A DNA stretch of 64,000 bases from Bradyrhizobium sp. CIAT3101. Lineage in GTDB: Bacteria; Pseudomonadota; Alphaproteobacteria; Rhizobiales; Xanthobacteraceae. A program made the position numbers and the translations under genes. The notes beneath the pieces are model-generated. The model was not told the origin of the DNA. It worked only from the letters and a program-made list of their open reading frames with translations, and did not search any database. The stretch is from the NCBI RefSeq assembly GCF_029714945.1, contig NZ_CP121634.1:5043001-5107000 (forward strand), given 5' to 3'. Positions 19,759 to 33,304 of the stretch are shown one piece after another; position 1 is the stretch's first letter; each line of letters opens with the position of its first letter.

Positions 19759-21243
19759 ATGCCGACGATGCATCGGCCGGGCGAAGCCCGGCGAGCACGG
19801 GTCATTCGTCCATTGCTGTCGCTTCTCGCCGCGGCCCTGATTGGCGCGCACATCACCCCGGCTCTTGCCGACCAACCGGCAAGGATCATCGGACTTCCCG
19901 CGGTCCCCGTCTGGACCGGCGATTTCGACGGGATGAAGGACCGCAAGCTCGTCCGCATCCTGGTGCCCTTCAGCAGGACGTCGTTCTTTCTCGACAAGGG
20001 CGAAGCCTTCGGCTTCGAAGCCGAGCTTGGTCAGGAGTTCGAGACCTGGCTGAACAAGCGCTACGGGAAGAAGCCCTATCACATCAACGTGGTCTTCATA
20101 CCAACGCCGCGCGATCGATTGTTCGACGAACTACGAGCGGGCAAGGGTGACATCGCCGCCGGCAATCTCACCATCACTGCGGAGCGCGCCAGCATCGTCG
20201 ATTTCGCAGCGCCTTGGGCGACGAACGTCAAGGAAGTCCTTGTGACGGGACCCGCGGCACCAGCCATCGCAGGGCTCGACGATCTCGCCGCAACCGGCGT
20301 GGCAACGAGGCTCTCCAGCAGCTATTTCACGCATCTGAAGGCGATCAACGAACAGCGCAAGCAGTCGGGAAAAGCGCCGATCAAGCTCGATGCCGCCGAC
20401 GAAAATCTTCAGGACGAGGATTTGCTTGAAATGGTGGGTGGCGGCCTGCTGCCGTGGGTGGTCGTCGATCGTCACAAGGCGGTTGCCTGGTCGGGACTGC
20501 TTAGGGGACTCAAGGTCCGGGAGGACATCACGATCAACGACGGCGGAGAGCTGGCCTGGGCCATACGAAAGGACAGCCCGCTCCTGACCAAGGAGCTCAA
20601 CGAGTTCGTCGCCGGCCACCGGCTCGGAACGGAGTTCGGCAACAACCTCAAAGCGCGTTACGTGACCAACGCCAAGGCCATCAAGAATGCGATTGCCGAC
20701 GCCGGAAAGCTCCAGGCGCTGGTCGCGGCATTCACGGAGTATGGCGGTCGATACGCTATCGATCCGATGCTGCTCGCCGCACAAGGCTACCAGGAGTCTG
20801 GCTTCGACCAGAAGATGCGAAACAGCTCCGGCGCGGTCGGCATCATGCAGATCAAGCCGAGCACGGCGCACGAGAAGCAGATTGCCATCAACGATGTCAC
20901 CTCACGTGCGGAGGACAACATCCACGCTGGCGCAAAATATCTCCGCTTCCTTGCCGACACCTATATCGCCGAGCCCGCCGTCGAGGCCCGCGAACAGGTG
21001 TTGATGGCGCTCGCGGCCTACAACGCGGGCCCCGGCAATCTGAAGAAATTTCGCGATTTTGCCAGTAAGCATGGCCTCGACCGAAACCGCTGGTTCGGCA
21101 ACGTCGAGAACGGAGCGGCGGCGATCGTCGGGCAGGAGACGGTCGGCTATATCGGCAATATCTACAAATACTACGTCGTCTACGCGGCCCAGATCAAAGC
21201 GAACGAGAAGGCCGCGAAGACCGACGCCGTGGCCAAGCCGTAG
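19759..21243 (+). CDS. MltF-like lytic transglycosylase (binding-protein domain plus SLT domain)
   Basis: A 494-aa exported protein: signal peptide (~16-37, LLSLLAAALIGAHITPALAD), a periplasmic amino-acid-binding-like domain (~65-310; FGFEAELGQEFE...RLFDELRAGKGDIAAGNLTITAERASIVDFAAPW), then a family-1 SLT domain (~325-480) with catalytic Glu in QGYQESGFDQ, the SSGAVGIMQIKP motif, and LMALAAYNAGPGNLKKF. This is the MltF architecture: muramidase activity with a regulatory ligand domain. E. coli MltF is outer-membrane attached; here no lipobox is seen. GGAGAGA precedes ATG 19759. Convergent with the ABC binding-protein gene, 2 bp apart. Confidence 0.9.
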   Translation: MPTMHRPGEARRARVIRPLLSLLAAALIGAHITPALADQPARIIGLPAVPVWTGDFDGMKDRKLVRILVPFSRTSFFLDKGEAFGFEAELGQEFETWLNKRYGKKPYHINVVFIPTPRDRLFDELRAGKGDIAAGNLTITAERASIVDFAAPWATNVKEVLVTGPAAPAIAGLDDLAATGVATRLSSSYFTHLKAINEQRKQSGKAPIKLDAADENLQDEDLLEMVGGGLLPWVVVDRHKAVAWSGLLRGLKVREDITINDGGELAWAIRKDSPLLTKELNEFVAGHRLGTEFGNNLKARYVTNAKAIKNAIADAGKLQALVAAFTEYGGRYAIDPMLLAAQGYQESGFDQKMRNSSGAVGIMQIKPSTAHEKQIAINDVTSRAEDNIHAGAKYLRFLADTYIAEPAVEAREQVLMALAAYNAGPGNLKKFRDFASKHGLDRNRWFGNVENGAAAIVGQETVGYIGNIYKYYVVYAAQIKANEKAAKTDAVAKP

Positions 21244-21245
21244 CC

Positions 21246-22250
21246 CTACTTCTTCACCTTGCTCGCATCCATCTTGATCGCGGGATCCAGCATCCCGGTC
21301 GAGAACGCCGTCGTCACGTCGAACGGCTTTTCCATGCCCAGATACGTTTGGACCAGCTCGTAATCCTTCTTCATCCGCTCGCCGTCGATCCAGCCGAGAC
21401 CCTTGGTGGTCGTGAACTCGTCGGTCATCAGATATTTGATGCGCTCCCACTGGCGCTCCTGGTTCTCCTTGTCGAGACCGGAGACCTGGTCGAGCAGCGC
21501 CTTCAGGCACGGCGCGACGTCGGCGACGCAGGCCGCAAAGGCGTTTTGCGAGATGCGCACGAACGCCTCGACCAGCTTCGGATTCTTCTGGAGATAGGCG
21601 CCGTTGACGATCAGCGAATTGCCGTAGGGGTTGAGGCCGATGTCCTTCCAGTTGACGTAGCCGAGGTCCTGCCCGAACTCGATCACCTTCAGATCGTGCT
21701 CGTTGTAGAAATCGCTGATGATGTCGACGGTGTGGCTCTTCAGCGCGGCGATCTTCGCGGTCGGCCCGATATTGACGAAGCTGACGGAGTCGGGCGCGAG
21801 GCCTGCGGCCTTGGCGAAGGCCGGCCACATCACGCGCGAGGCGTCGCCGGGCGGATTGCCGATCTTGTGGCCGGCGAAATCCTTTACGCCGTTCACGCCG
21901 TAGCTCTTCAGCCAGTAGAACGTCTGGCCGGTGTTGGCGTAGATGCTCATCAGCGCGACGTCGTCGGCGCCCTTGCTCTTGGCGACCAGCATGGTGGCGA
22001 GATCGGCGATGCCGAACGGCGAGCCGCCGGAGCCGACCTTGGCGGCGGATACGCCGGAGCCCTTGCCGACCTCGATGGTCAGGTTGATGCCGGCCTTCTC
22101 GTACCAGCCCTGCGCCTTGGCGTAATAGAACGGCGAATGGTCGGCGGTCGGCGTCCAGTTCAGGATCAGGTTGACCGCCTCGCCCGCGCTCGCCGGCATT
22201 GCCGGCAACCCCAGCGCCAGAGCCACAAAAGCCGCCTGCAAACGTTTCAT
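21246..22250 (-). CDS. ABC transporter substrate-binding protein, NMT1/THI5 (NitT/TauT) type
   Basis: A 334-aa periplasmic binding protein with a signal peptide (ending MPASAG). The mature N-terminus VNLILNWTPTADHSPFYYAKAQGWYEKAGINLTIEVGKGS and the VKDFAGHKIGNPPGDASR segment are characteristic of the NMT1/THI5-like family, which binds thiamine-pyrimidine precursors, sulfonates, nitrate or similar small solutes. It is transcribed divergently from the TetR-permease-...-ATPase operon, and no other permease is nearby, so it is almost certainly that transporter's binding subunit. A candidate TetR operator lies between the two promoters (22333-22350). Confidence 0.9.
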   Translation of the reverse strand: MKRLQAAFVALALGLPAMPASAGEAVNLILNWTPTADHSPFYYAKAQGWYEKAGINLTIEVGKGSGVSAAKVGSGGSPFGIADLATMLVAKSKGADDVALMSIYANTGQTFYWLKSYGVNGVKDFAGHKIGNPPGDASRVMWPAFAKAAGLAPDSVSFVNIGPTAKIAALKSHTVDIISDFYNEHDLKVIEFGQDLGYVNWKDIGLNPYGNSLIVNGAYLQKNPKLVEAFVRISQNAFAACVADVAPCLKALLDQVSGLDKENQERQWERIKYLMTDEFTTTKGLGWIDGERMKKDYELVQTYLGMEKPFDVTTAFSTGMLDPAIKMDASKVKK

Positions 22251-22332
22251 CGTCTGTCTCCCCGTTGCCGCGACCCGGCTTGTCGCTCTCCCCGTGTGAG
22301 GCTACCAATGCAACAAGCCCGCCCTCAACTTG

Positions 22333-22350
22333 TCAACTGTTTGGTTGGAA
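22333..22350. promoter_or_regulatory. Candidate TetR operator, copy 1
   Basis: TCAACTGTTTGGTTGGAA directly before the TetR start codon. It has the CAAC-N6-GTTG core that reappears at 22999-23016; the two 18-mers agree at 13 positions. Position suggests autoregulation and control of the divergent binding-protein gene. Confidence 0.5.
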
Positions 22351-22998
22351 ATGCCCGCAAAACGATCAGGCGACACCGTGCCGCAGCGCCGCGACCCCGT
22401 CGCCACCCGCAAGAAGCTGCTCACCGCGGCGCGCCTGGAGTTCGCCCGGCACGGTTTTGCGGGCGCCCGCGTCGACGAGATCGCGGAGCGCGCCGGCGTC
22501 AACAAGCAGCTGGTCTACCACTATTTCGGCGACAAGGACGCGCTCTACCTCGCCGTGCTGGAATGGGTCTACGAGGACATCCGCGAGCAGGAGCGCAAGC
22601 TCAATCTCGAGGGCCTGCCGCCGGACAAGGCGATCCGCCGGCTGATCGAGGCCTCGTTCGATCATTTGGCGGAAAACCCCGATTTCATCGTGCTTCTGAA
22701 CGACGAGAACCGCGGCGGCGCCCGCCACGTCCGCGGCTCGACGCGGCTGGAGGCGATGCATTCGCCGCTGGTGAAGAGCGTCTCCCACATCCTGCACGAA
22801 GGCGTGCGCGCCGGATTGTTCCGCAAGGGGATCGACCCGGTCCAGCTCTACATCTCCATCGCCGGCTTGAGCTATTTCTTCTTCTCCAACACGCCGACGC
22901 TGTCGGCGATCTTCGGCAAGGACCTGTCGAGCCGCACCGCCCGCCGCGCCCGCCGCCGGCATGTCGCCGATCTCGTGCTGCAGTCGCTCCGGCCGTAA
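22351..22998 (+). CDS. TetR family regulator of the ABC/aldolase operon
   Basis: A 215-aa repressor. HTH: RKKLLTAARLEFARHGFAGARVDEIAERAGVNKQLVYHYFGDKDALYLAVLE, a near-consensus TetR domain of the RutR type. The C-domain (SFDHLAENPDFIVLLNDENRGGARHVRGS...GLSYFFFSNTPTLSAIFG) is the TetR_C variant seen in regulators of catabolic operons, including RutR for pyrimidine use. ATG 22351 is preferred over TTG 22330 because the latter reads through the candidate operator. Two operator-like sites flank the gene. Confidence 0.9.
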   Translation: MPAKRSGDTVPQRRDPVATRKKLLTAARLEFARHGFAGARVDEIAERAGVNKQLVYHYFGDKDALYLAVLEWVYEDIREQERKLNLEGLPPDKAIRRLIEASFDHLAENPDFIVLLNDENRGGARHVRGSTRLEAMHSPLVKSVSHILHEGVRAGLFRKGIDPVQLYISIAGLSYFFFSNTPTLSAIFGKDLSSRTARRARRRHVADLVLQSLRP

Positions 22999-23016
22999 TC
23001 AACCAACTGGTTGAAA
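22999..23016. promoter_or_regulatory. Candidate TetR operator, copy 2
   Basis: TCAACCAACTGGTTGAAA starts right after the TetR stop codon and precedes the permease gene. It is a near-perfect palindrome (TCAACC/GGTTGA) with the same CAAC-N6-GTTG core as copy 1. Confidence 0.55.
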
Positions 23017-23080
23017 CTTGGCGCCGGGACGGTTAAGCTCGGCGTTGCGGCAGTGAGGCCGAGGCGACAGGGAGCAGACG

Positions 23081-23854
23081 GTGGCAGGTGGCGGAGCCAG
23101 CAGTCCAGCGCGCAGCGTTGCGATCGTCCTGATCGTGCATCTGGCCGTGCTCGTGCTCTGGCAGGTCGCGGTCGATGCCTTCCACGTGCCGAAATTCATC
23201 CTGCCCTCGCCGCTCGCAACCGTGCAGACGCTGGGAACTGCCAGCTATGCCTGGGGCGCCAACACGCTGGTGACGGCGGTCGAGATCCTCGGCGGCTTCG
23301 CGCTCGGCGCTTTCGTCGGCGTCGCGCTTGCGGTGATCTTCAGCTGGGCGCCGCTGCTCAGCCTCGCGCTGCTGCCGCTGTTCGTCACGCTGAACATGAT
23401 CCCGAAGGTCGCGCTCGGTCCGCTCTTCATCGTCTGGTTCTCCTACGGCATCCTGCCGAACATCCTGATCGCCTTCAGCATCTGCTTCTTCCCGATTCTG
23501 CTCACCACCGCGCGCGGCCTGCGCGAGGTCGAGCCGGACCTGCTCGATCTCGTCAAATCGCTGCGCGGCTCGCGCTGGACGCTGTTTCGCAAGATCCAGT
23601 TGCCGGGCTCGCTGCCATATGTGTTCTCCGGCATGAAGGTCGGCGCCATCCTCGCGGTCGCCGGTGCGATCGTCGGCGAGTTCATCGCCTCCGAGCGCGG
23701 GCTCGGCTACCTCATGATCCAGGTGCAGTCGTCGCTCGACACGCCCGCGATGGTGATGGCCGTCGTGCTGCTGACACTGCTCGGCGTCGCCCTCTACGGC
23801 CTGGTGCTCGTGCTCGAACGCATGTTCGTCGTGGGCGATGCAAGACAAACTTGA
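23081..23854 (+). CDS. ABC transporter permease, NitT/TauT (SsuC-like) type
   Basis: A 257-aa inner-membrane subunit with about six helices. The N-terminal WQVAVDAFHVPKFILPSPLATVQTLG and the cytoplasmic EAA loop (EVEPDLLDLVKSLRGSRWTLFRKIQLPGSLPYVFSGMKVG) are family signatures, coupling to the ATPase. Start at GTG 23081. It follows the TetR gene and candidate operator 2 and heads the unidirectional gene series to 27575; its ATPase partner is the last gene of that series. Confidence 0.92.
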   Translation: MAGGGASSPARSVAIVLIVHLAVLVLWQVAVDAFHVPKFILPSPLATVQTLGTASYAWGANTLVTAVEILGGFALGAFVGVALAVIFSWAPLLSLALLPLFVTLNMIPKVALGPLFIVWFSYGILPNILIAFSICFFPILLTTARGLREVEPDLLDLVKSLRGSRWTLFRKIQLPGSLPYVFSGMKVGAILAVAGAIVGEFIASERGLGYLMIQVQSSLDTPAMVMAVVLLTLLGVALYGLVLVLERMFVVGDARQT

Positions 23855-23888
23855 AAACGGCAAACCTGAAAACGGCAAACTTGAAGGA
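23847..23888 (+). repeat. Short tandem repeat at the permease-epimerase junction
   Basis: A 15-bp unit (AAACTTGAAAACGGC / AAACCTGAAAACGGC) repeated about two and a half times. It spans the permease stop codon and provides a GAAGGA ribosome site for the next gene. Confidence 0.6.
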
Positions 23889-23897
23889 CCAATCGAT

Positions 23898-24935
23898 ATG
23901 CTCCTCACCCGCCAGACGCTGCCGAAGACGATCCCTGATATCGCGGCCCTCGACGATCTCCTCTGCCGTCCGACGCAGGCGTTGATCGACGATCTCAAAA
24001 GGGTCGAAGGCGACATCATGATCCTCGGCGTTGCCGGCAAGATGGGGCCGACGCTGGCGGGGCTAGCGAAAGCCGCCGCCCCCGACCGCCGCGTCATCGG
24101 CGTCGCCCGCTTCAGCGACGCCAGTGTCAAGGACTGGCTGCAGGCGCGCGGCGTCGAGACCATCAATTGCGACCTGCTCGATGACGCCGCGATCGAGGCG
24201 CTGCCGAAGGCGCCCAACATCATCTTCATGGCCGGCCGCAAGTTCGGCGCCGAGGGCGATCTGTCGCTGACCTGGGCGATGAACGCGCATGTGCCGGCGC
24301 TGGTGGCGCAGGCCTTCCCGTCGTCGCGGATCGTGGCGTTCTCGACCGGCTGCGTCTATCCGTTCGTCGGCGTCGACGGCAAAGGCTCGACCGAGGACAT
24401 GGCGCCGAACCCGCCCGGCGAATACGCCCAGTCCTGCGTCGGTCGCGAGCGCATGTTCGAGTATTTTTCGCACAAATTCGCAACACCGGGCCGGCTGTTC
24501 CGGCTCAATTACGCGATCGACATGCGCTACGGCGTGCTGCACGACATCGCGACAAAAGTGCTGACGGGCACATCGATCGACGTCAGCCTCGGCCACGTCA
24601 ATTTCATCTGGCAGGGCGATGCATCCGCGCAGGCGCTGCGGTGCCTGGCGCATTGCACGGCGCCGACCACGCCGATCAATGTCAGCGGCCACGAGATTCT
24701 GGCGGTGCGCGATCTCGCACAGAAATTCGGCGCCCGCTTCGGCCGCGCGCCGGTGCTGACAGGCAAGGAAGAACCGACGGCGTGGCTGACTGACACGTCG
24801 AAAGCCGTGGAGCTGCTCGGCCTGCCGGTCGTCGACACCGAGCAGCTGATCGCCTGGACCGCCGACTGGGTCTCCCGCGCCATGCCGAGCCTCGGCAAGC
24901 CAACCAAATACGAGGTGCGCGATGGCCGCTACTGA
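23898..24935 (+). CDS. NAD-dependent epimerase/dehydratase-like protein, catalytic Lys replaced
   Basis: A 345-aa extended-SDR protein. Rossmann motif ILGVAGKMG (~42-50, GxxGxxG), NIIFMAGRKFG for the NNAG-like site, SRIVAFSTGCVYPF with catalytic Ser/Thr, then GEYAQSCVGRERMFEYF. In classical enzymes Tyr176 is followed by Lys at +4; here residue 180 is Cys (codon TGC). So the active site is non-canonical: it may be a distinct reaction, or a degenerate or binding role. ATG 23898 follows GAAGGA; an earlier ATG (23838) overlaps the permease gene. Substrate probably that of the co-encoded transporter. Confidence 0.82.
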   Translation: MLLTRQTLPKTIPDIAALDDLLCRPTQALIDDLKRVEGDIMILGVAGKMGPTLAGLAKAAAPDRRVIGVARFSDASVKDWLQARGVETINCDLLDDAAIEALPKAPNIIFMAGRKFGAEGDLSLTWAMNAHVPALVAQAFPSSRIVAFSTGCVYPFVGVDGKGSTEDMAPNPPGEYAQSCVGRERMFEYFSHKFATPGRLFRLNYAIDMRYGVLHDIATKVLTGTSIDVSLGHVNFIWQGDASAQALRCLAHCTAPTTPINVSGHEILAVRDLAQKFGARFGRAPVLTGKEEPTAWLTDTSKAVELLGLPVVDTEQLIAWTADWVSRAMPSLGKPTKYEVRDGRY

Positions 24936-25743
24936 CGGGCCTCCCGTCATCAAGCTCGGCCTGGATGATGCCATGGCCGGGCTCGTGCTCTCGACGGAAG
25001 CGCACTGGAACCAGACGGAGGAGGACTGGCGCATTTTCCTGCGCGACGGCGTCGTGTTCGGCATCCGCACCGGCATACTGCTGGTCGCGACCGCCGCGCT
25101 GCTGCCCTATTCCGGCAACAACGCCTGGATCAGCATGGTGCTGGTGACGGCAAGCCATCGCCGCCGCGGCCTCGCCACGCGCCTCGTCGATGCCTGCCTG
25201 GAAACCGCGCGCAAGAACGGCCTGACCAGCTGGCTTGATGCCACGCCAGACGGGGTTGCGGTCTACGGGCCGCTCGGCTTCACGCCGACGCTGCAATTGC
25301 GGCGGATGAAGCTCGCGACACCCGCGCGGGCCGCAGCGCCACACTTGTCATCCGCGAGCATCGATGCGCTTCGCGCGCGCGACCGGCGGGCCACCGGGCT
25401 CGATCGCACTGCGCTGCTGTCAGCCTTCGCGCAGCGCTCCGGCTCGCGCATCGTCTCGGCCAACGGAGCCATCGCACTGGTGCGCGACGGCCGGACCGCC
25501 CGCCACATCGGCCCGTTATTCGCCGACAATGCCGCGGCAGCGCTGGCGCTGGTTCATGCGATCGTACGCTCCGAGACCGGCCCACTCCTGCTCGACGCGG
25601 TCGCGCCGCAGGCTGCGTTCCTCGAAGGATTGACCGCATCGGGCTGGACCATCGAGCGCCCGTTCCAGCGCATGCGGTTCGGCCCCGCCACCACCGCGAG
25701 CGAAGAAATGCCATTCGCCGTCGCCGGCCCCGAATTCGGATAG
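24922..25743 (+). CDS. GNAT family N-acetyltransferase-like protein, two-domain
   Basis: A 273-aa protein. The N-terminal half carries the GNAT core: WISMVLVTASHRRRGLATRLVDACLETARKNGL, with the R/Q-x-x-G-x-G/A acetyl-CoA loop as RRRGLA, then WLDATPDGVAVYGPLGFTPTLQLRRMKL. The C-terminal half (~135-270) is a weaker repeat-like domain ending WTIERPFQRMRFG, as in the YitH-like/two-domain acetyltransferases. Its start overlaps the epimerase stop by 14 bp, so it is translationally coupled in the operon. Confidence 0.85.
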   Translation: MAATDGPPVIKLGLDDAMAGLVLSTEAHWNQTEEDWRIFLRDGVVFGIRTGILLVATAALLPYSGNNAWISMVLVTASHRRRGLATRLVDACLETARKNGLTSWLDATPDGVAVYGPLGFTPTLQLRRMKLATPARAAAPHLSSASIDALRARDRRATGLDRTALLSAFAQRSGSRIVSANGAIALVRDGRTARHIGPLFADNAAAALALVHAIVRSETGPLLLDAVAPQAAFLEGLTASGWTIERPFQRMRFGPATTASEEMPFAVAGPEFG

Positions 25744-25749
25744 GACATC

Positions 25750-26805
25750 ATGCACCACAGCCAGATCAACGCCGACGTCCGCAAGCTCATTGCCGAGGGT
25801 ACCGTGCTCCCGGCGCATCCGCTCGCGCTCACCGCCGAGCGCCAGCTCGACAAGAAACATCAGCGCGCCTTGACGCGCTACTACATCGACGCCGGCTCCG
25901 GCGGCCTTGCCGTCGGCGTGCACACCACCCAATTCGCGATCCGCGACGTCGGCCTCTACCGCCCCGTGCTCGAGCTCGCCGCAGAGACCGCCGCGACCTG
26001 GACCAAGCGTCCGCTGGCCATGGTCGCGGGCCTCGCCGGCCCGACCGCACAGGCCGTCACCGAAGCCCGCACCGCGCGCGGCATCGGCTATCACGCGGGC
26101 CTGCTCAGCCTCGCCGCGATGAAGAGCGCCTCCGAGGACGAGATCATCGCGCACTGCACCGCCGTTGCTTCCGAGATCCCGCTCGTCGGCTTCTACCTTC
26201 AGCCGGCGGTCGGCGGCGTCATCCTGTCGAGCCGGTTCTGGCAGCGCTTTGCCTCGATCGACAACGTGATCGCGATCAAGATCGCACCGTTCAACCGCTA
26301 CCGCACGCTCGACGTGCTGCGCGGCGTCGCGGCCGCCGGTGCGCTCGATCGCGTCGCGCTCTACACGGGTAACGACGATCACATCCTGCTCGACCTGATG
26401 CTGCCGTTCGACTTGCGCGACAAGGGCGTCACCACGCGCACTTATTTCAAGGGTGGCCTGCTGGGCCACTGGTCGGTCTGGACGGCGAGCGCAATACAGC
26501 AGTTCGAACGCTGCAAGCAGGCGCGGCACAAGGACAGCGTGCCGGCCGACCTGCTCGCACTCGATGCCCGCGTCACCGATTGCAACAGCGCCTTCTTCGA
26601 CGTCGCCAACAATTTTCACGGCTGCATCGCCGGCTGTCACGAGGTGCTGCGGCGCCAGGGCCTGATGCAGGGCCTGTGGTGCCTCGATCCGAACGAGGGT
26701 CTGAGCTCCGGCCAGAAGGACGAGATCGATCGCGTCACACGCGAGCACGCTGATCTGAGCGACGATGCCTTTGTGGCCGACAATCTGAGCAATTGGCTGG
26801 CATGA
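25750..26805 (+). CDS. Dihydrodipicolinate synthase-family aldolase/lyase (DapA-like)
   Basis: A 351-aa TIM-barrel protein of the class I pyruvate-type aldolase superfamily, longer than DapA (~290 aa). The Schiff-base lysine is probably Lys177 in NVIAIKIAPFNR, and the catalytic Tyr is Tyr149 in LVGFYLQPAVGG. The GTTGE substrate loop of DapA is replaced by VGVHTTQFAIR, so the keto-acid specificity likely differs. It sits 6 bp after the GNAT gene and its stop overlaps the ATPase start (ATGA). A retro-aldol or dehydration step on the imported compound is inferred, not shown. Confidence 0.83.
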   Translation: MHHSQINADVRKLIAEGTVLPAHPLALTAERQLDKKHQRALTRYYIDAGSGGLAVGVHTTQFAIRDVGLYRPVLELAAETAATWTKRPLAMVAGLAGPTAQAVTEARTARGIGYHAGLLSLAAMKSASEDEIIAHCTAVASEIPLVGFYLQPAVGGVILSSRFWQRFASIDNVIAIKIAPFNRYRTLDVLRGVAAAGALDRVALYTGNDDHILLDLMLPFDLRDKGVTTRTYFKGGLLGHWSVWTASAIQQFERCKQARHKDSVPADLLALDARVTDCNSAFFDVANNFHGCIAGCHEVLRRQGLMQGLWCLDPNEGLSSGQKDEIDRVTREHADLSDDAFVADNLSNWLA

Positions 26806-27575
26806 GCTCAAAACCCTTCATCAGCCTGCAAGGCGTCCGAAAGGTCTATCGCAGCGGCGGCACCGAGTTCCTCGCGGTGTCCGACGTGACCATGGACGTG
26901 CAGGAAGGTGAGCTGGTTTCGCTGGTCGGTCCGTCCGGCTGCGGCAAGACCACGGTGATGAAGATCCTGGCCGGCCTGCACGGTGCCGACGGCGGCACGG
27001 TGACGATCGGCAATGCCGAGAGCCCGTTCGATCCGACCCGGGACATCGGCATGGTGTTCCAGCAGGCTCTGCTGCTGAAATGGCGCACCATCCTCGACAA
27101 TGTGCTGTTACCGGCCGAGATCGTCGGACTGCCGATCAAGGCCGCGCGCGAGCGGGCGCGCGACCTGCTCAACCTCGTCGGCCTTGCCGGCTATGAACAG
27201 AAATATCCGCGAGAGCTCTCCGGCGGCATGCAGCAACGCACCGCGATCGCGCGCGCCTTCATCCACGATCCGAAGCTGATCCTGATGGACGAGCCGTTCG
27301 GCGCGCTGGACGCGCTGACACGCGAGCAGATGAATCTCGAGATGCTGCGGATCTGGCGGGAGAGCGGCAAGACCATCATCTTCGTCACACACTCCATCCA
27401 GGAGGCCGTGTTCTTGTCCTCCCACTGCGCCGTGCTGACTGCGGGTCCCGCCAAGATGGCCGACTACTTCCCGATCGACCTGCCCTTCCCGCGCGATCTT
27501 CCGCTCAAGACGACTGATGCGTTCGGCGCCTATGCGCGGCGGATCTACGCGAAACTCGGGCTGGGCTCCTCCTGA
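26802..27575 (+). CDS. ABC transporter ATP-binding protein, NitT/TauT (SsuB/TauB-like)
   Basis: A 257-aa ATPase with all motifs: Walker A GPSGCGKTT (~46-54), Q-loop VFQQALLLKW, signature LSGGMQQR, Walker B LILMDEPFGALD, and H-loop FVTHSIQEAVFLS. ATG 26802 overlaps the preceding stop in ATGA. It completes the transporter with the permease at 23081 and the divergent binding protein at 21246. The end converges with the autotransporter gene 9 bp away. Confidence 0.93.
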   Translation: MSSKPFISLQGVRKVYRSGGTEFLAVSDVTMDVQEGELVSLVGPSGCGKTTVMKILAGLHGADGGTVTIGNAESPFDPTRDIGMVFQQALLLKWRTILDNVLLPAEIVGLPIKAARERARDLLNLVGLAGYEQKYPRELSGGMQQRTAIARAFIHDPKLILMDEPFGALDALTREQMNLEMLRIWRESGKTIIFVTHSIQEAVFLSSHCAVLTAGPAKMADYFPIDLPFPRDLPLKTTDAFGAYARRIYAKLGLGSS

Positions 27576-27584
27576 GACGAACGC

Positions 27585-29012
27585 TCAAAATTCTCCGCCG
27601 ACGCCGAGATAGGCCGTGTGCTCGGTGCCGCCGCCATTGCCATAGCCACCCACGACGGTGAACGGCATGGCGGTGTTGAGGCGATGGGCGAAACCAACAC
27701 CGAAGCCGCCCTCGCCGTGAAACGTGGAGCCGCGGACCTGCCAGATGGTCTTGCCCGGTGCGGACGGCATCGGCGCGCTGGCGGCCGCAACAGCGGCAGC
27801 GATACCGCGCCGCGCTTCGGTCAGATTATTGCCGATCTGCGCCTGGAGCGAGCCGATCTGCGACTGAAATCCGGAGGTGATGCCGGAGAGTTGGCTCATG
27901 TTGACGGCATCGGTCGGATTGATGCCGGCGGCGACATTGGTCAGGCGCCGCTCGTTGCCGGCCGTACCGAACGACACGGTGTTGGCGGCGGTTGCGACCG
28001 AGCCGGCGCCGATCGCGACGGAATTGGCTGCCTGTGCCACGGCGTTCATCCCGAGCGCCATCGCGTTGACGCCATTTGCCTGCGCGTTGCTGCCGAGCGA
28101 CGTGCCGCCGGTGTTCGCGATGGCCGACGCGCCGAGCGCGGTGGCGCCGGCTCCATTGGCGTTGGCCGACGTGCCGAGCGAGACCGTGCCCTCACCGGTG
28201 GCAGAGGCGAAGGTGCCGACCGCGGTCGCCGCGTTGCCGGTGGCGCCGGCGTTGGCGCCGAGCGCGACTGCGAAAGTGCCGGTCGCGTTGCTGCTGTCGC
28301 CGATGGCGACGGCACGGGTGCCGAGCGCGTTACTGCTTTCTCCATAGGCCGTGGCCGCGCCACCATTGGCCTTGCTGTTGGCGCCGGTCGCCGTTGCGCG
28401 TTCGCCCGTGGCGATGCTGTTCTGGCCCGTCGCGGTCGCAAAGGTGCCATTGGCGAGGCTGCCGGCGCCGGTTGCGGTGGCGCTGTCGCCGAGGGCGCTG
28501 CTGCCCTCGCCGGTTGCGGTTGCCGCCGCCCCGAACGCGGAGCTATGGGCGCCCGTCGCCGTGGCGGTTGCACCACTCGCGATGGCGGAGCCACCGAACG
28601 CAGCGGAATCGGCGCCGATGGCGGAGGCGTGTGTACCGGCAGCCGTGGCGCCTGTGCCGGTTGCGGTGGAATTGTCACCAAAGGCGCTGGCCGATAGTCC
28701 GGTTGCCGTGGTGCCGATACCGATCGCGGTCGCGTTATCGCCGGTCGCGTTGGACAAGCCGCCGATGGCAACCGCGGTGTTGCCGCTTGCACTAGCCGAG
28801 TAGCCATAGGCAGCGGCGAATATCCCCTGTGTCGTCGCGCTCGGCCCGACCGCCGTGGCGAAGCCGGATGGCGCGTTGTTGACGCCGCCGCCGGCCGCGT
28901 AGTCGGCAGCCATTGCGGATCCGGTGTGAAGGAATGTGGTCGCGAGAAGGATCGCCAAACAAAAGACGATCGGGCGCCTAGCGGTCCCTAAAATGCTGTT
29001 CCGTGAGGCCAT
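27585..29012 (-). CDS. Trimeric autotransporter adhesin (YadA-like)
   Basis: A 475-aa outer-membrane adhesin. Residues ~1-36 are an export signal. From ~45 to ~335 there are about twenty imperfect 14-residue YadA-head repeats of the form ATATGxxSxALGxx (for example NSTATGTGATAAGTHASAIG), forming a left-handed beta-roll. Next comes the neck/stalk NERRLTNVAAGINPTDAVNMSQL, then a short coiled coil and the four-strand YadA anchor (TIWQVRGSTFHGEGGFGVGFAHRLN...YLGVGGEF) ending in Phe as OmpA-type barrels do. Start at the second ATG (29012), which has GGAG seven bases upstream. Binding target unknown; surface or root attachment is inferred. Confidence 0.92.
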   Translation of the reverse strand: MASRNSILGTARRPIVFCLAILLATTFLHTGSAMAADYAAGGGVNNAPSGFATAVGPSATTQGIFAAAYGYSASASGNTAVAIGGLSNATGDNATAIGIGTTATGLSASAFGDNSTATGTGATAAGTHASAIGADSAAFGGSAIASGATATATGAHSSAFGAAATATGEGSSALGDSATATGAGSLANGTFATATGQNSIATGERATATGANSKANGGAATAYGESSNALGTRAVAIGDSSNATGTFAVALGANAGATGNAATAVGTFASATGEGTVSLGTSANANGAGATALGASAIANTGGTSLGSNAQANGVNAMALGMNAVAQAANSVAIGAGSVATAANTVSFGTAGNERRLTNVAAGINPTDAVNMSQLSGITSGFQSQIGSLQAQIGNNLTEARRGIAAAVAAASAPMPSAPGKTIWQVRGSTFHGEGGFGVGFAHRLNTAMPFTVVGGYGNGGGTEHTAYLGVGGEF

Positions 29013-29190
29013 TTTCGACTCCATTCCCTGTTGCGCAAGGTCTGGAGGAATGGCGAAATTCGCACATCAACCGTAAGGTTGAGAAACGCCGGGCGGCGTC
29101 CCTGCCTATCGTTTTCCGGCAGGATGTTGCAGCAATGCATCGCATTCCAGAGCGGGGCGCGGCATGAACACCGCGCCCAACCGGTTCGGC

Positions 29191-30981: not shown

Positions 30982-31447
30982 CGACGTGCATCTTTCGCAA
31001 AGCCGGTGCAAGCGCATCCGGCTGCATCTCGAGGATTCGGACAGCGAGTCTAACGCAACGCGGTCGGATCGAGAAGCCGCGCGGACTATCGCGGCGGCGC
31101 GTACAGCTTCTACGACAGGTTGCACAGCAATATCGCGCAATGCGTCATGTTGACACGGCAACATGGCTCGCCTAAGGATCGTGAAAGCCTGCCGCACCGC
31201 GAGCGGGTTCAAGGGGAGCGAACGTCCGTGCCGTCATCAGGGGTGGGCACCGATCCGCATGCCATGGCGCATCGCGGCGGAGCGGTTTTGCGCGTGAATG
31301 AAACTGCGTCGCGGCGCATCGCCGGCGGACGCGCATCTCTCCCCACAACGATTCAGAAAACGTCTCCGACCACCCGACACCTCGCCGGTTCGCGATGCGT
31401 CGCGTGCATTCGTTCAATCATCAACGTTGAAAATGGGAGGGCATGAC
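30982..31447. other. 466-bp intergenic region, no gene seen
   Basis: Between the divergent MarR and tannase genes. No convincing coding sequence or strong hairpin was found; overlapping short ORFs here have no signal peptide, domain or ribosome site. It presumably carries both promoters. Confidence 0.5.
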
Positions 31448-33304
31448 ATGAAACGATTTTTCCTCGCCTCGACGATCGTCGCCACGTGGGCGTCGCTCGG
31501 CCCGCAGGCAACGGCACACGGGCTGCCGCCGAGCGGCGTGGCCCCGCGCTCGTCCTGCACCGCCCTCACCGGGCTCACTCTGCCGAACACGCAGATCCTG
31601 AGCGCGACGCAGAAATCCGGCTATTGCAACGTGGTCGGCATCATCAACAAGCGCGTCTCCACGCAAGACCCCGATCATTTCACCTACGGCATCGGCTTTG
31701 CGCTCAATCTGCCCAACACCTGGCATGGCCGCTTCGAGATGATGGGCGGCGGCGGCACCGACGGCAGCCTCAATGCCGACCCGCAAGGTGCGGCCGGCGT
31801 CGAGCTCGGCCAGGGCTGGGCGGTGGCGGCCGACGACGGCGGCCACGAGGACAGCGCGACCAACGTGGTCGGCGGCCATCAGGACGACGACGCCAATGCC
31901 GGCGGCTCCGCGCATTTCGCGATCGATGCGCAGGCACGCCGCGACTACGGCTATAACGGCATCGAGAAGACCGCGACCACCGCCAAGCAGATCATCTCCT
32001 ATTTCTACGGCCTCGAGACCGTCTATTCCTACATCATGGGCTGCTCGAACGGCGGCCGCGACGCGATGGTCGCCTCGCAACGATCGCCCTGGCTGTTCGA
32101 CGGCGTGATCTCGCAAAACCCGGGCTTCAACCTGCCGCAGGCGGGCCTCGCCGAAGCCTGGAACGAGCAGGTGCTCGGCACGCTGTCGACCAGCAAGGAC
32201 GTCAACGGCCAGCCCTATATTCCCGACACGTTCCCGCAGCAGGACCTTCAGGTGGCATCGGCTGCGATCCTGAGCGCCTGCGACGCACTCGACGGCCTCG
32301 TTGACGGCATCATCGACAATTACCACGCATGTACGGCGAAGAAGGTGTATCCGGCACTCGCGAGCTACACCTGCGGCACCGGCTCGCACGGCAGCACGCC
32401 GCACGGCGGCACTTGCCTGACCAGCGCGCAGGTCGATGCGCTGAAGAAGATCTACACCGGACCGGTCAATTCAAAGGGCGAGCGGCTCTATTCGAACTGG
32501 TTCTGGGATGCCGGCATCTGGACGCCGCCGACCGCGCCGGGCGCGGGCTGGCAATTCTGGAATGTCGTCACTGCTCCGGTGCCTGGCGTCAACACCGCGA
32601 TCAATCTGACGCTCGGTGCCGGCGCGATCCCGATGATCTTCCAGACGCCGCCCGTCGTCACGCCCGTCAACGGACCGACCGGCCAGGAAGCCTTCGTGTT
32701 CAAATTCAACTTCGACACGGATGCGCCGAAGATCTTCACGAAGACCGCGGCCTATCCTGAGAGTTCGATGGACTTCATGGCGGCGGTCGCAACCGATTTG
32801 CGTCCGTTCAGGTCGCGCGGCGGCAAGCTGATCATCTCGTCCTCGGTCAATGACGGCATCTTCTCCGGCGCCGCGATCGCCCGCTGGTATCGCAAGATGA
32901 ACCAGCGCATGGACAATCACGCGACTGATTTCGCGCGGCTGTTCATGGTGCCCAACATGGCCCATTGCGGCGGCGGCGCGGCGACCACCAGCTTCGCCAC
33001 CAACGAGCTCAAGGCGATCACGGACTGGGTCGAGAACGGCATCGCGCCGGAACGGATCATCGCGGCCAATACCAACACCACCTCGCCCTACCCGACCGGC
33101 GGCGTGTTCGATCCGCGCATTGCCCAGAACTTTCCGACCGGAGGCACGCGGCCGCTCTGCGTCTATCCCAGGATTCCCGCGTACAAGGGCAGCGGCCTGA
33201 CCAGCGATGCGACAAGCTTTGCGTGCGTCGATCCCGGCTTCGGCCGAGGCGGCGACCACGACTTCCACGACGATGACGACGGCCACGGCGGCGACGGGCA
33301 CTGA
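31448..33304 (+). CDS. Tannase/feruloyl esterase family protein (secreted)
   Basis: A 618-aa exported esterase. Signal peptide (~1-24). Catalytic Ser200 lies in MGCSNGGRDAM, Asp in SSSVNDGIFSG, and His in MVPNMAHCGGG. The Cys next to Ser200 and the Cys after the catalytic His form the CS-D-HC pattern that links the two by a disulfide in tannases and feruloyl esterases. The last 25 residues are His/Asp/Gly-rich (GGDHDFHDDDDGHGGDGH), probably metal binding. GGAGG precedes ATG 31448. Likely hydrolyses plant phenolic esters such as gallate or ferulate; which one is unknown. Confidence 0.92.
   Translation: MKRFFLASTIVATWASLGPQATAHGLPPSGVAPRSSCTALTGLTLPNTQILSATQKSGYCNVVGIINKRVSTQDPDHFTYGIGFALNLPNTWHGRFEMMGGGGTDGSLNADPQGAAGVELGQGWAVAADDGGHEDSATNVVGGHQDDDANAGGSAHFAIDAQARRDYGYNGIEKTATTAKQIISYFYGLETVYSYIMGCSNGGRDAMVASQRSPWLFDGVISQNPGFNLPQAGLAEAWNEQVLGTLSTSKDVNGQPYIPDTFPQQDLQVASAAILSACDALDGLVDGIIDNYHACTAKKVYPALASYTCGTGSHGSTPHGGTCLTSAQVDALKKIYTGPVNSKGERLYSNWFWDAGIWTPPTAPGAGWQFWNVVTAPVPGVNTAINLTLGAGAIPMIFQTPPVVTPVNGPTGQEAFVFKFNFDTDAPKIFTKTAAYPESSMDFMAAVATDLRPFRSRGGKLIISSSVNDGIFSGAAIARWYRKMNQRMDNHATDFARLFMVPNMAHCGGGAATTSFATNELKAITDWVENGIAPERIIAANTNTTSPYPTGGVFDPRIAQNFPTGGTRPLCVYPRIPAYKGSGLTSDATSFACVDPGFGRGGDHDFHDDDDGHGGDGH

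Follow-up and report, generated by a model that had tools for sequence, protein, structure and literature searches.

Which compound is taken up and degraded by the seven genes at positions 21246–27575 of the analysed stretch of DNA (the window; 64,000 nucleotides), where the parts of an ABC transporter are split around a TetR-family regulator and three enzymes? The window comes from a genome of 9.37 Mb in a single contig (G000), recognised as Bradyrhizobium by its named closest relatives. An earlier reading made from the letters alone (the sequence-only reading) described the locus as an uncharacterised operon for import and catabolism with a split NitT/TauT ABC transporter. This description is supported, the transporter being of the NMT1 family and no substrate being assigned to the operon in the literature searched. 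It further proposed that a carbohydrate-acid or amino compound is taken in and split to a keto acid, and cleavage of a carbohydrate-acid-like substrate to a keto acid remains the best guess. We give about even odds (a probability near 0.5) to a TetR-controlled uptake-and-catabolism unit for a small carbohydrate-derived acid, in which an NAD(P)-dependent step by an epimerase-like enzyme (EPI) would be followed by cleavage or dehydration by an aldolase-like enzyme of the DHDPS family. The defining unit of this locus is the near-invariant EPI–DHDPS pair, and its transporter is exchangeable.

The EPI–DHDPS pair and its transporters

EPI, an extended-SDR epimerase-like oxidoreductase, is encoded at 23898–24935 on the plus strand, and the DHDPS/NAL-superfamily class I aldolase-like enzyme follows on the same strand at 25750–26805. 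Both proteins, each at E 1e-40 or better, were detected in the identical 12 of 398 genomes of the phylum with no exception, which corresponds to 5 of 5 genera (of 212; hypergeometric P 3e-10). The two are present together even in genome G075, at 4.44 and 1.25 Mb in contig coordinates and so separated by 3.2 Mb; the EPI match in G387 holds one TGA, and a 344-residue frame is called there. Because both enzymes occur in the same 12 genomes while the transporters vary, the pair was taken as the functional unit. A DHDPS relative was also detected in 19 plasmid records, and 10 annotated regions of these, from four phyla, were viewed. EPI and DHDPS are adjacent in seven of these regions (L121–L126 and L130) and one gene apart in the other three, with GNAT between them in L128 and L129 and TetR in L127. 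The hosts include Streptomyces, Rhodococcus, Glaciihabitans, Prescottella, Paenibacillus, Mesobacillus, and the planctomycete Aquisphaera.

The sequence-only reading had suggested looking for the same gene order in other genomes. A scan of one genome per species, based on an alignment of DHDPS-like sequences, gave at least 590 stretches encoding relatives, from which the best 80 loci were compared. The relative order of a minus-strand solute-binding protein (SBP) gene, tetR, permease, EPI, GNAT, DHDPS, and ATPase was found in 30 of these 80 loci, namely in 23 of 24 from Bradyrhizobium and 7 of 56 from elsewhere, the latter including Ferrovibrio, Maritimibacter, Xenophilus, Pseudochrobactrum, and Eoetvoesiella. 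This count considers only the seven families and disregards intervening genes, such as an amidase gene between permease and EPI in L068. Plasmids of Tistrella mobilis and Sulfitobacter dubius likewise carry annotated genes in the layout of the window. Given this recurrence among homologous loci, the seven-gene cluster is a conserved unit and more than a chance arrangement. Of the 56 non-Bradyrhizobium loci, 50 contain EPI (39 of them within 1.5 kb), and GNAT was matched in 34, so that the acyltransferase is frequent but dispensable.

The transporter genes of the window comprise the NMT1/THI5-like SBP (21246–22250, minus strand), the permease (23081–23854, plus; BPD_transp_1, 96 bits), and the ATPase (26802–27575, plus; ABC_tran, 110 bits). 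The SBP passes the NMT1 gathering score of Pfam (133 vs. 20.5 bits), its top PDB sequence matches being 4nmy (E 4e-15) and the FAMP-binding protein 3ix1 (E 2.4e-14), and its closest relatives by sequence among solved structures include this FAMP-binding protein and THI5. Its scores lie below the NCBIfam cut-offs for the SsuA family (50 vs. 163.5) and the taurine SBP (31.5 vs. 304); the permease missed those of SaoP, SsuC, NtrB, and TauC, and the cut-offs for TauB and SaoA were likewise missed by the transporter. The window thus resembles the NMT1/THI5-type importers ThiY, SsuABC, TauABC, and NrtABC in matching all three Pfam families, and differs from them in that its genes are split around TetR and three enzymes and miss the subfamily cut-offs; the likeness to ThiY through 3ix1 is one of sequence only.

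The same enzymes are kept with unrelated transporters elsewhere: TctABC, a distant NMT1-type ABC system (the second of two NMT1-ABC types seen), ribose-type and CUT1 sugar ABC systems, and MFS proteins. A close SBP (45% or more) accompanies them in 20 of the 56 non-Bradyrhizobium loci, only a distant SBP in 13, and TctA in 12. The plasmid regions carry sugar ABC genes in a CUT1-type layout (L121, L123, L125), MFS (L124, L130), TctABC (L127), ABC genes in the order of the window (L128, L129), or no transporter in view (L122, L126). Such an association with unrelated transporters had been named by the sequence-only reading as a result that would count against it. It was found in part, and the view of a transporter-centred unit gave way to that of a narrower enzyme core inside a conserved cluster. 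Because most of these transporters (binding-protein ABC and TctABC) serve uptake, and the MFS proteins may work in either direction, the variation narrows the idea and does not refute a catabolic role.

Active-site residues of the two enzymes

The DHDPS-like protein has the TIM-barrel DHDPS fold and passes the Pfam DHDPS cut-off (33.5 vs. 22.1). Its Schiff-base lysine K177, which aligns to that of DHDPS, is present in all 50 rows of alignment A3 and all 12 rows of A6 (60 distinct proteins). The active-site tyrosine Y149 is present in 50/50 and 10/12 rows, respectively, and is replaced with serine in Glaciihabitans and with alanine in Rhodococcus. The DHDPS family usually carries G-T-T-G-E, a GxxGE motif; the window protein lacks this motif and reads G-V-H-T-T-Q-F there, with H58 and Q61 in all aligned rows. 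Fold and lysine would place the enzyme in the DHDPS/NAL superfamily, apart from the DapA and NanA types. It shares 13–22% identity, in the listed matches, with members such as DapA, NanA, 4-hydroxy-2-oxoglutarate aldolase (3s5o), and L-KDA dehydratase (7c0d), and differs from them in its length of 351 residues with a longer C-terminal part as well as in H-T-T-Q-F. The NCBIfam cut-offs of KDG dehydratase (21.4 vs. 278 bits) and NanA (19.5 vs. 382 bits) were missed, and no further model was matched at E 0.001. The at least 590 candidate stretches of the single scan belong to a large protein family that is now labelled just “dihydrodipicolinate synthase family”.

EPI contains the nucleotide-binding GxxGxxG motif, of which G44, G47, and G50 (numbered by the first row of alignment A4) are invariant, and its model gave Rossmann-fold matches. 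The YxxxK motif of SDR enzymes is incomplete. Its tyrosine occurs in all 50 distinct proteins aligned (40 rows of A4 and 12 of A5, the window and L108 being in both), and the lysine position is occupied by cysteine in 48 (C200 in the 365-residue frame of the window) and valine in 2. The closest match by both sequence and fold is TerB, an NADP-dependent oxidoreductase of terfestatin biosynthesis (6nd7, 6d2v), which shares 21% identity, has YxxxK where EPI has YxxxC (YxxxV in two actinobacteria), and stands in a different gene setting; the literature searched held nothing on TerB. The “epimerase” of the sequence-only reading hence keeps its Pfam match (Epimerase, 34 vs. cut-off 20.9) but appears to be a weak label, because the catalytic lysine of SDR enzymes is absent and the nearest structure is titled an oxidoreductase. 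In the actinobacterial loci L123 and L124, the EPI change from cysteine to valine coincides with the DHDPS change from tyrosine to serine or alanine, possibly a paired change of specificity.

A broader proposal may be built on these residues, which we hold only tentatively and consider less probable than not. EPI and DHDPS would form an obligate two-enzyme route across Pseudomonadota, Actinomycetota, Bacillota, and Planctomycetota that degrades a common environmental compound outside the known bacterial nutrients, and EPI would be an SDR enzyme in which an almost invariant Tyr-x-x-x-Cys replaces Tyr-x-x-x-Lys with a changed mechanism. Its active site would then show how the SDR fold works without the lysine, or what other role it has.

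The TetR regulator and a candidate operator

The regulator gene (22351–22998, plus strand; TetR_N plus TetR_C_29, 136 bits) is flanked by two copies of a palindrome, TCAACCAnnTGGTTGA, that we consider a candidate TetR operator. The copy in the tetR–permease gap (22999–23014; TCAACCAACTGGTTGA) is perfect, being the only site with no mismatch in the 9.37 Mb genome, and it recurs in distant genera. The copy in the SBP–tetR gap (22333–22348; TCAACTGTTTGGTTGG) is partly conserved; of the 24 Bradyrhizobium loci, 23 hold a copy within three mismatches of the palindrome. Both copies are kept in 23/24 of these loci, where the tetR–permease copy shows at most two mismatches in 23/24 and is perfect in 19/24. 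The regulator was listed as an open reading frame from TTG 22330; the ATG at 22351 is the likelier start, because that TTG directly precedes the operator-like palindrome at 22333–22348.

Sites with two or fewer mismatches number 44 per strand over the whole genome, compared with 8 for the backward pattern. For a comparison outside the genus, L027–L030 were added to the 56 loci described above. In 15 of these 60 non-Bradyrhizobium loci, such sites lie beside the starts of SBP, TetR, permease, or EPI genes, 25 sites in all, against 9 elsewhere. Read in reverse, the pattern gave 0, and 100 shuffled palindromes gave on average 0.29 near sites (at most 7) and 0.26 loci (at most 6). A site stands directly upstream of EPI in six loci with a different transporter arrangement (L059, L060, L066, L071, L075, L078). 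A stricter score located sites at 4/24 permease, 2/26 EPI, 1/27 SBP, 0/25 TetR, and 1/7 Gfo/Idh promoters vs. 1/423 others; it was replaced by the mismatch count with reversed and shuffled controls.

These observations suggest the following scheme, in which the binding of TetR to the palindromes and its repression are proposed from sequence. Without inducer, TetR would occupy the candidate operators at 22333–22348 and 22999–23014 and shut off the divergent SBP gene, tetR itself, and the permease–EPI–GNAT–DHDPS–ATPase operon. SBP, permease, and ATPase would import the small carbohydrate-derived acid, on which EPI may perform an NAD(P)-dependent step inside the cell. The DHDPS-like enzyme would then form a Schiff base via K177 and cleave (or dehydrate) the resulting 2-keto acid, presumably to a C2–C3 unit such as pyruvate or hydroxypyruvate and an aldehyde. 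The tandem GNAT acyltransferase (24922–25743, plus strand; Acetyltransf_18, 47 bits; Acetyltransf_1, 42 bits) may serve as an accessory that acylates an amino-bearing form. Substrate class, reaction order, products, and the role of GNAT are our suggestions, whereas gene set, order, palindrome conservation, co-occurrence of the pair, and conservation of the catalytic residues were observed.

RutR, a TetR-type regulator of pyrimidine use, is the top NCBIfam match of this TetR, yet by score (64.2 bits against a cut-off of 368) the protein does not qualify as a RutR. The operator core ACCAnnTGGT resembles the RutR consensus, TTGACCAnnTGGTCAA; the outer bases differ, and no rut genes are among the seven. 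Nothing relevant on RutR appeared in the literature searched (PMC5688634 is unrelated). Another palindrome, TCAACCGTAAGGTTGA, is located at 29067–29082, approximately 40 bp upstream of a YadA-like adhesin gene. The related TCAACCGTTCGGTTGA (or its complement) has four occurrences in the genome, possibly as sites of a different regulator.

Substrate class and competing explanations

The neighbours of the module point to the substrate class. Of the 60 non-Bradyrhizobium loci, 24 contain a protein of approximately 478 residues of the enolase superfamily, 20 an IolO-like TIM-barrel protein, and 12 an amidase. Gfo/Idh, DUF993, and another TIM-barrel protein were each seen in 7 loci and a MetE-like protein in 5; these families were assigned from one representative each. 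A few loci add a carbon–nitrogen hydrolase, an isochorismatase, a gluconolactonase-type protein, or a serine dehydratase, and a hydroxyacid dehydrogenase is near the module in L123 and L125. Because Gfo/Idh, sugar-isomerase-like, enolase-superfamily, and amidase neighbours occur together with sugar ABC transporters, the evidence favours, as a best guess, a carbohydrate-derived acid, possibly in amide- or amino-bearing forms. Bacterial sugar-acid catabolic operons consist of a transporter, a dehydratase or dehydrogenase, and a 2-keto-3-deoxy-acid aldolase. The locus appears to share their general plan of uptake, redox or dehydration, and class I aldol cleavage, and differs in that the EPI–DHDPS pair has no function in the literature searched and its partner enzymes vary by lineage. 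In the literature searched by combinations of family names, neither the gene set nor the pair was described (PMC10434189 is unrelated). An L-serine dehydratase lies directly beside EPI–DHDPS in L096 (11954, by Pfam), L109 (11997, by cluster), and L130 (5488–6852, by annotation), and a D-serine ammonia-lyase is near the module in L127. The serine dehydratases raise serine as a possible released product, although a DHDPS-type lyase yields keto acids and not serine.

Several observations weigh against a carbohydrate-acid unit of this kind. The carbohydrate-suggesting neighbours are absent from the window operon, whose enzymes are EPI, GNAT, and DHDPS only. With the SDR lysine absent, a redox role of EPI is uncertain, and with H-T-T-Q-F at the position of G-T-T-G-E, the standard binding of a keto acid by the DHDPS-like enzyme is not assured. 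EPI has no match in 6 of the 56 loci, in two of which (L057, L065) DHDPS lies at a contig end, and the co-occurrence comes from searches that scored at most 4 or 5 candidates in each of the 398 genomes. Neither kind of SBP nor TctA is in view in 12 of the 56 loci, some of them cut by contig ends; two of the 12, L059 and L062, carry other ABC genes, by eye ribose-type or similar. Finally, 15 of 30 TetR-bearing non-Bradyrhizobium loci have no palindrome site with two or fewer mismatches near the module genes.

An unlikely alternative is that the module takes up no sugar acid and salvages the side chain of a nitrogen-containing ring or an amide that resembles a pyrimidine, a vitamin, or a modified nucleoside. 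The relatedness of the SBP to the FAMP-binding protein and THI5 and the weak RutR match of TetR would then be the telling clues. Such a compound would also suit the isochorismatase and carbon–nitrogen hydrolase near the core in L059 and the amidases in 12 of the 60 loci. The RutR score is nevertheless far below its cut-off, no pyrimidine-ring-opening family is among the annotated neighbours (most flanking genes being unannotated), and the Gfo/Idh, sugar-isomerase, and CUT1 neighbours suit carbohydrates better.

The window operon might also be half of a longer pathway, which we judge to have a similarly low chance. A second, unlinked operon exists at 6560032–6568309 of G000:C1 (L114, 4033–12310), consisting of TetR, permease, NMT1 SBP, ATPase, enolase-superfamily, Gfo/Idh, DUF993, and TIM-barrel genes, and it contains a homologue of the enolase-superfamily partner. 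The full Gfo/DUF993/TIM trio is near DHDPS in 6 of the 60 loci (L056, L067, L070, L082, L092, L102), parts of it occur in L103 and L087, and the trio recurs in L115. DUF993 is present in 11 of the 12 DHDPS genomes vs. 36 of 398 overall (4 of 5 genera, P 2e-4), and the enolase-superfamily partner in 10 of 12 vs. 15 of 398 (3 of 5 genera, P 1e-4). The two operons lie 82–118 kb apart in nine Bradyrhizobium genomes; in the other seven of the 16 same-contig pairs measured, one of them the window genome, the distance exceeds 1.1 Mb. DUF993 is, moreover, found in 35 of 36 Bradyrhizobium genomes including 7 without a strong DHDPS match, hence independently of DHDPS, and the second operon holds no intergenic copy of the palindrome at two or fewer mismatches, so that no operator common to both was found. 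As for its enzymes, a PDB sequence search gave no relative of the enolase-superfamily partner, and DUF993 matched 4dnh, an uncharacterised protein; DUF993 is not close to the DHDPS-like protein by BLASTP (E 0.74), the only comparison of the two. The locus tag SMc04132 is presumably that of a DUF993 protein. The literature searched held nothing on DUF993, and the passage of PMC12542648 consulted gives no function for SMc04132.

Much less probable is a biosynthetic role, in which the enzymes would tailor a sugar or an aromatic compound for secretion, as TerB does in terfestatin synthesis, from a precursor brought in by the ABC transporter. TerB is the closest EPI fold and a GNAT is present, but the core transporters are mostly of importer types and vary freely, the neighbours are of catabolic type (enolase-superfamily, isomerase-like, amidase, serine dehydratase), and no synthase is among the annotated recurrent neighbour clusters, though a glycosyltransferase lies in the flank of L129. 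That an ordinary ABC importer stands beside unrelated enzymes by chance, as the abundance of NMT1 binding proteins (34 matches in the window genome) might suggest, is contradicted by the gene order recurring across classes and by the exceptionless EPI–DHDPS co-occurrence in the 398 genomes, and can be dismissed.

If the carbohydrate-acid reading holds, a catabolic route without a named substrate is present in at least four phyla, among bacteria of soil and water. The window would be a compact version of it, with one operon, one regulator, one predicted operator, and one binding protein, and the identity of its ligand would reveal a nutrient of Bradyrhizobium.

The gene calls underlying this analysis agree with the sequence-only reading. 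All seven reading frames at 21246–27575 were confirmed by the open reading frame listing, each with a Pfam match, and the coordinates reproduce the junctions: a 14 bp overlap of EPI and GNAT (stop 24935, start 24922), a 6 bp gap between GNAT and DHDPS (stop 25743, start 25750), and an ATGA overlap of DHDPS and ATPase (stop 26805, ATG 26802). The EPI frame is open from 23838; ATG 23898 is the likelier start, since the matches in other Bradyrhizobium set in at residues 15–21 of the longer frame. None of the seven proteins reached an NCBIfam cut-off (for the ATPase, among 25 of its 185 matches), PDB sequence searches of the cluster proteins gave relatives at fold level only, and promoter and terminator scans of the locus gave results at chance level. 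On one side, a gene at 19759–21243 ends 2 bp from the SBP gene and encodes a family 3 solute-binding domain with a transglycosylase SLT domain, an MltF-like layout. On the other, the gene of a YadA-type trimeric adhesin (27585–29024; YadA_head and YadA_stalk by Pfam) is convergent with that of the ATPase, and a tannase/feruloyl esterase family protein is encoded at 31298–33304.

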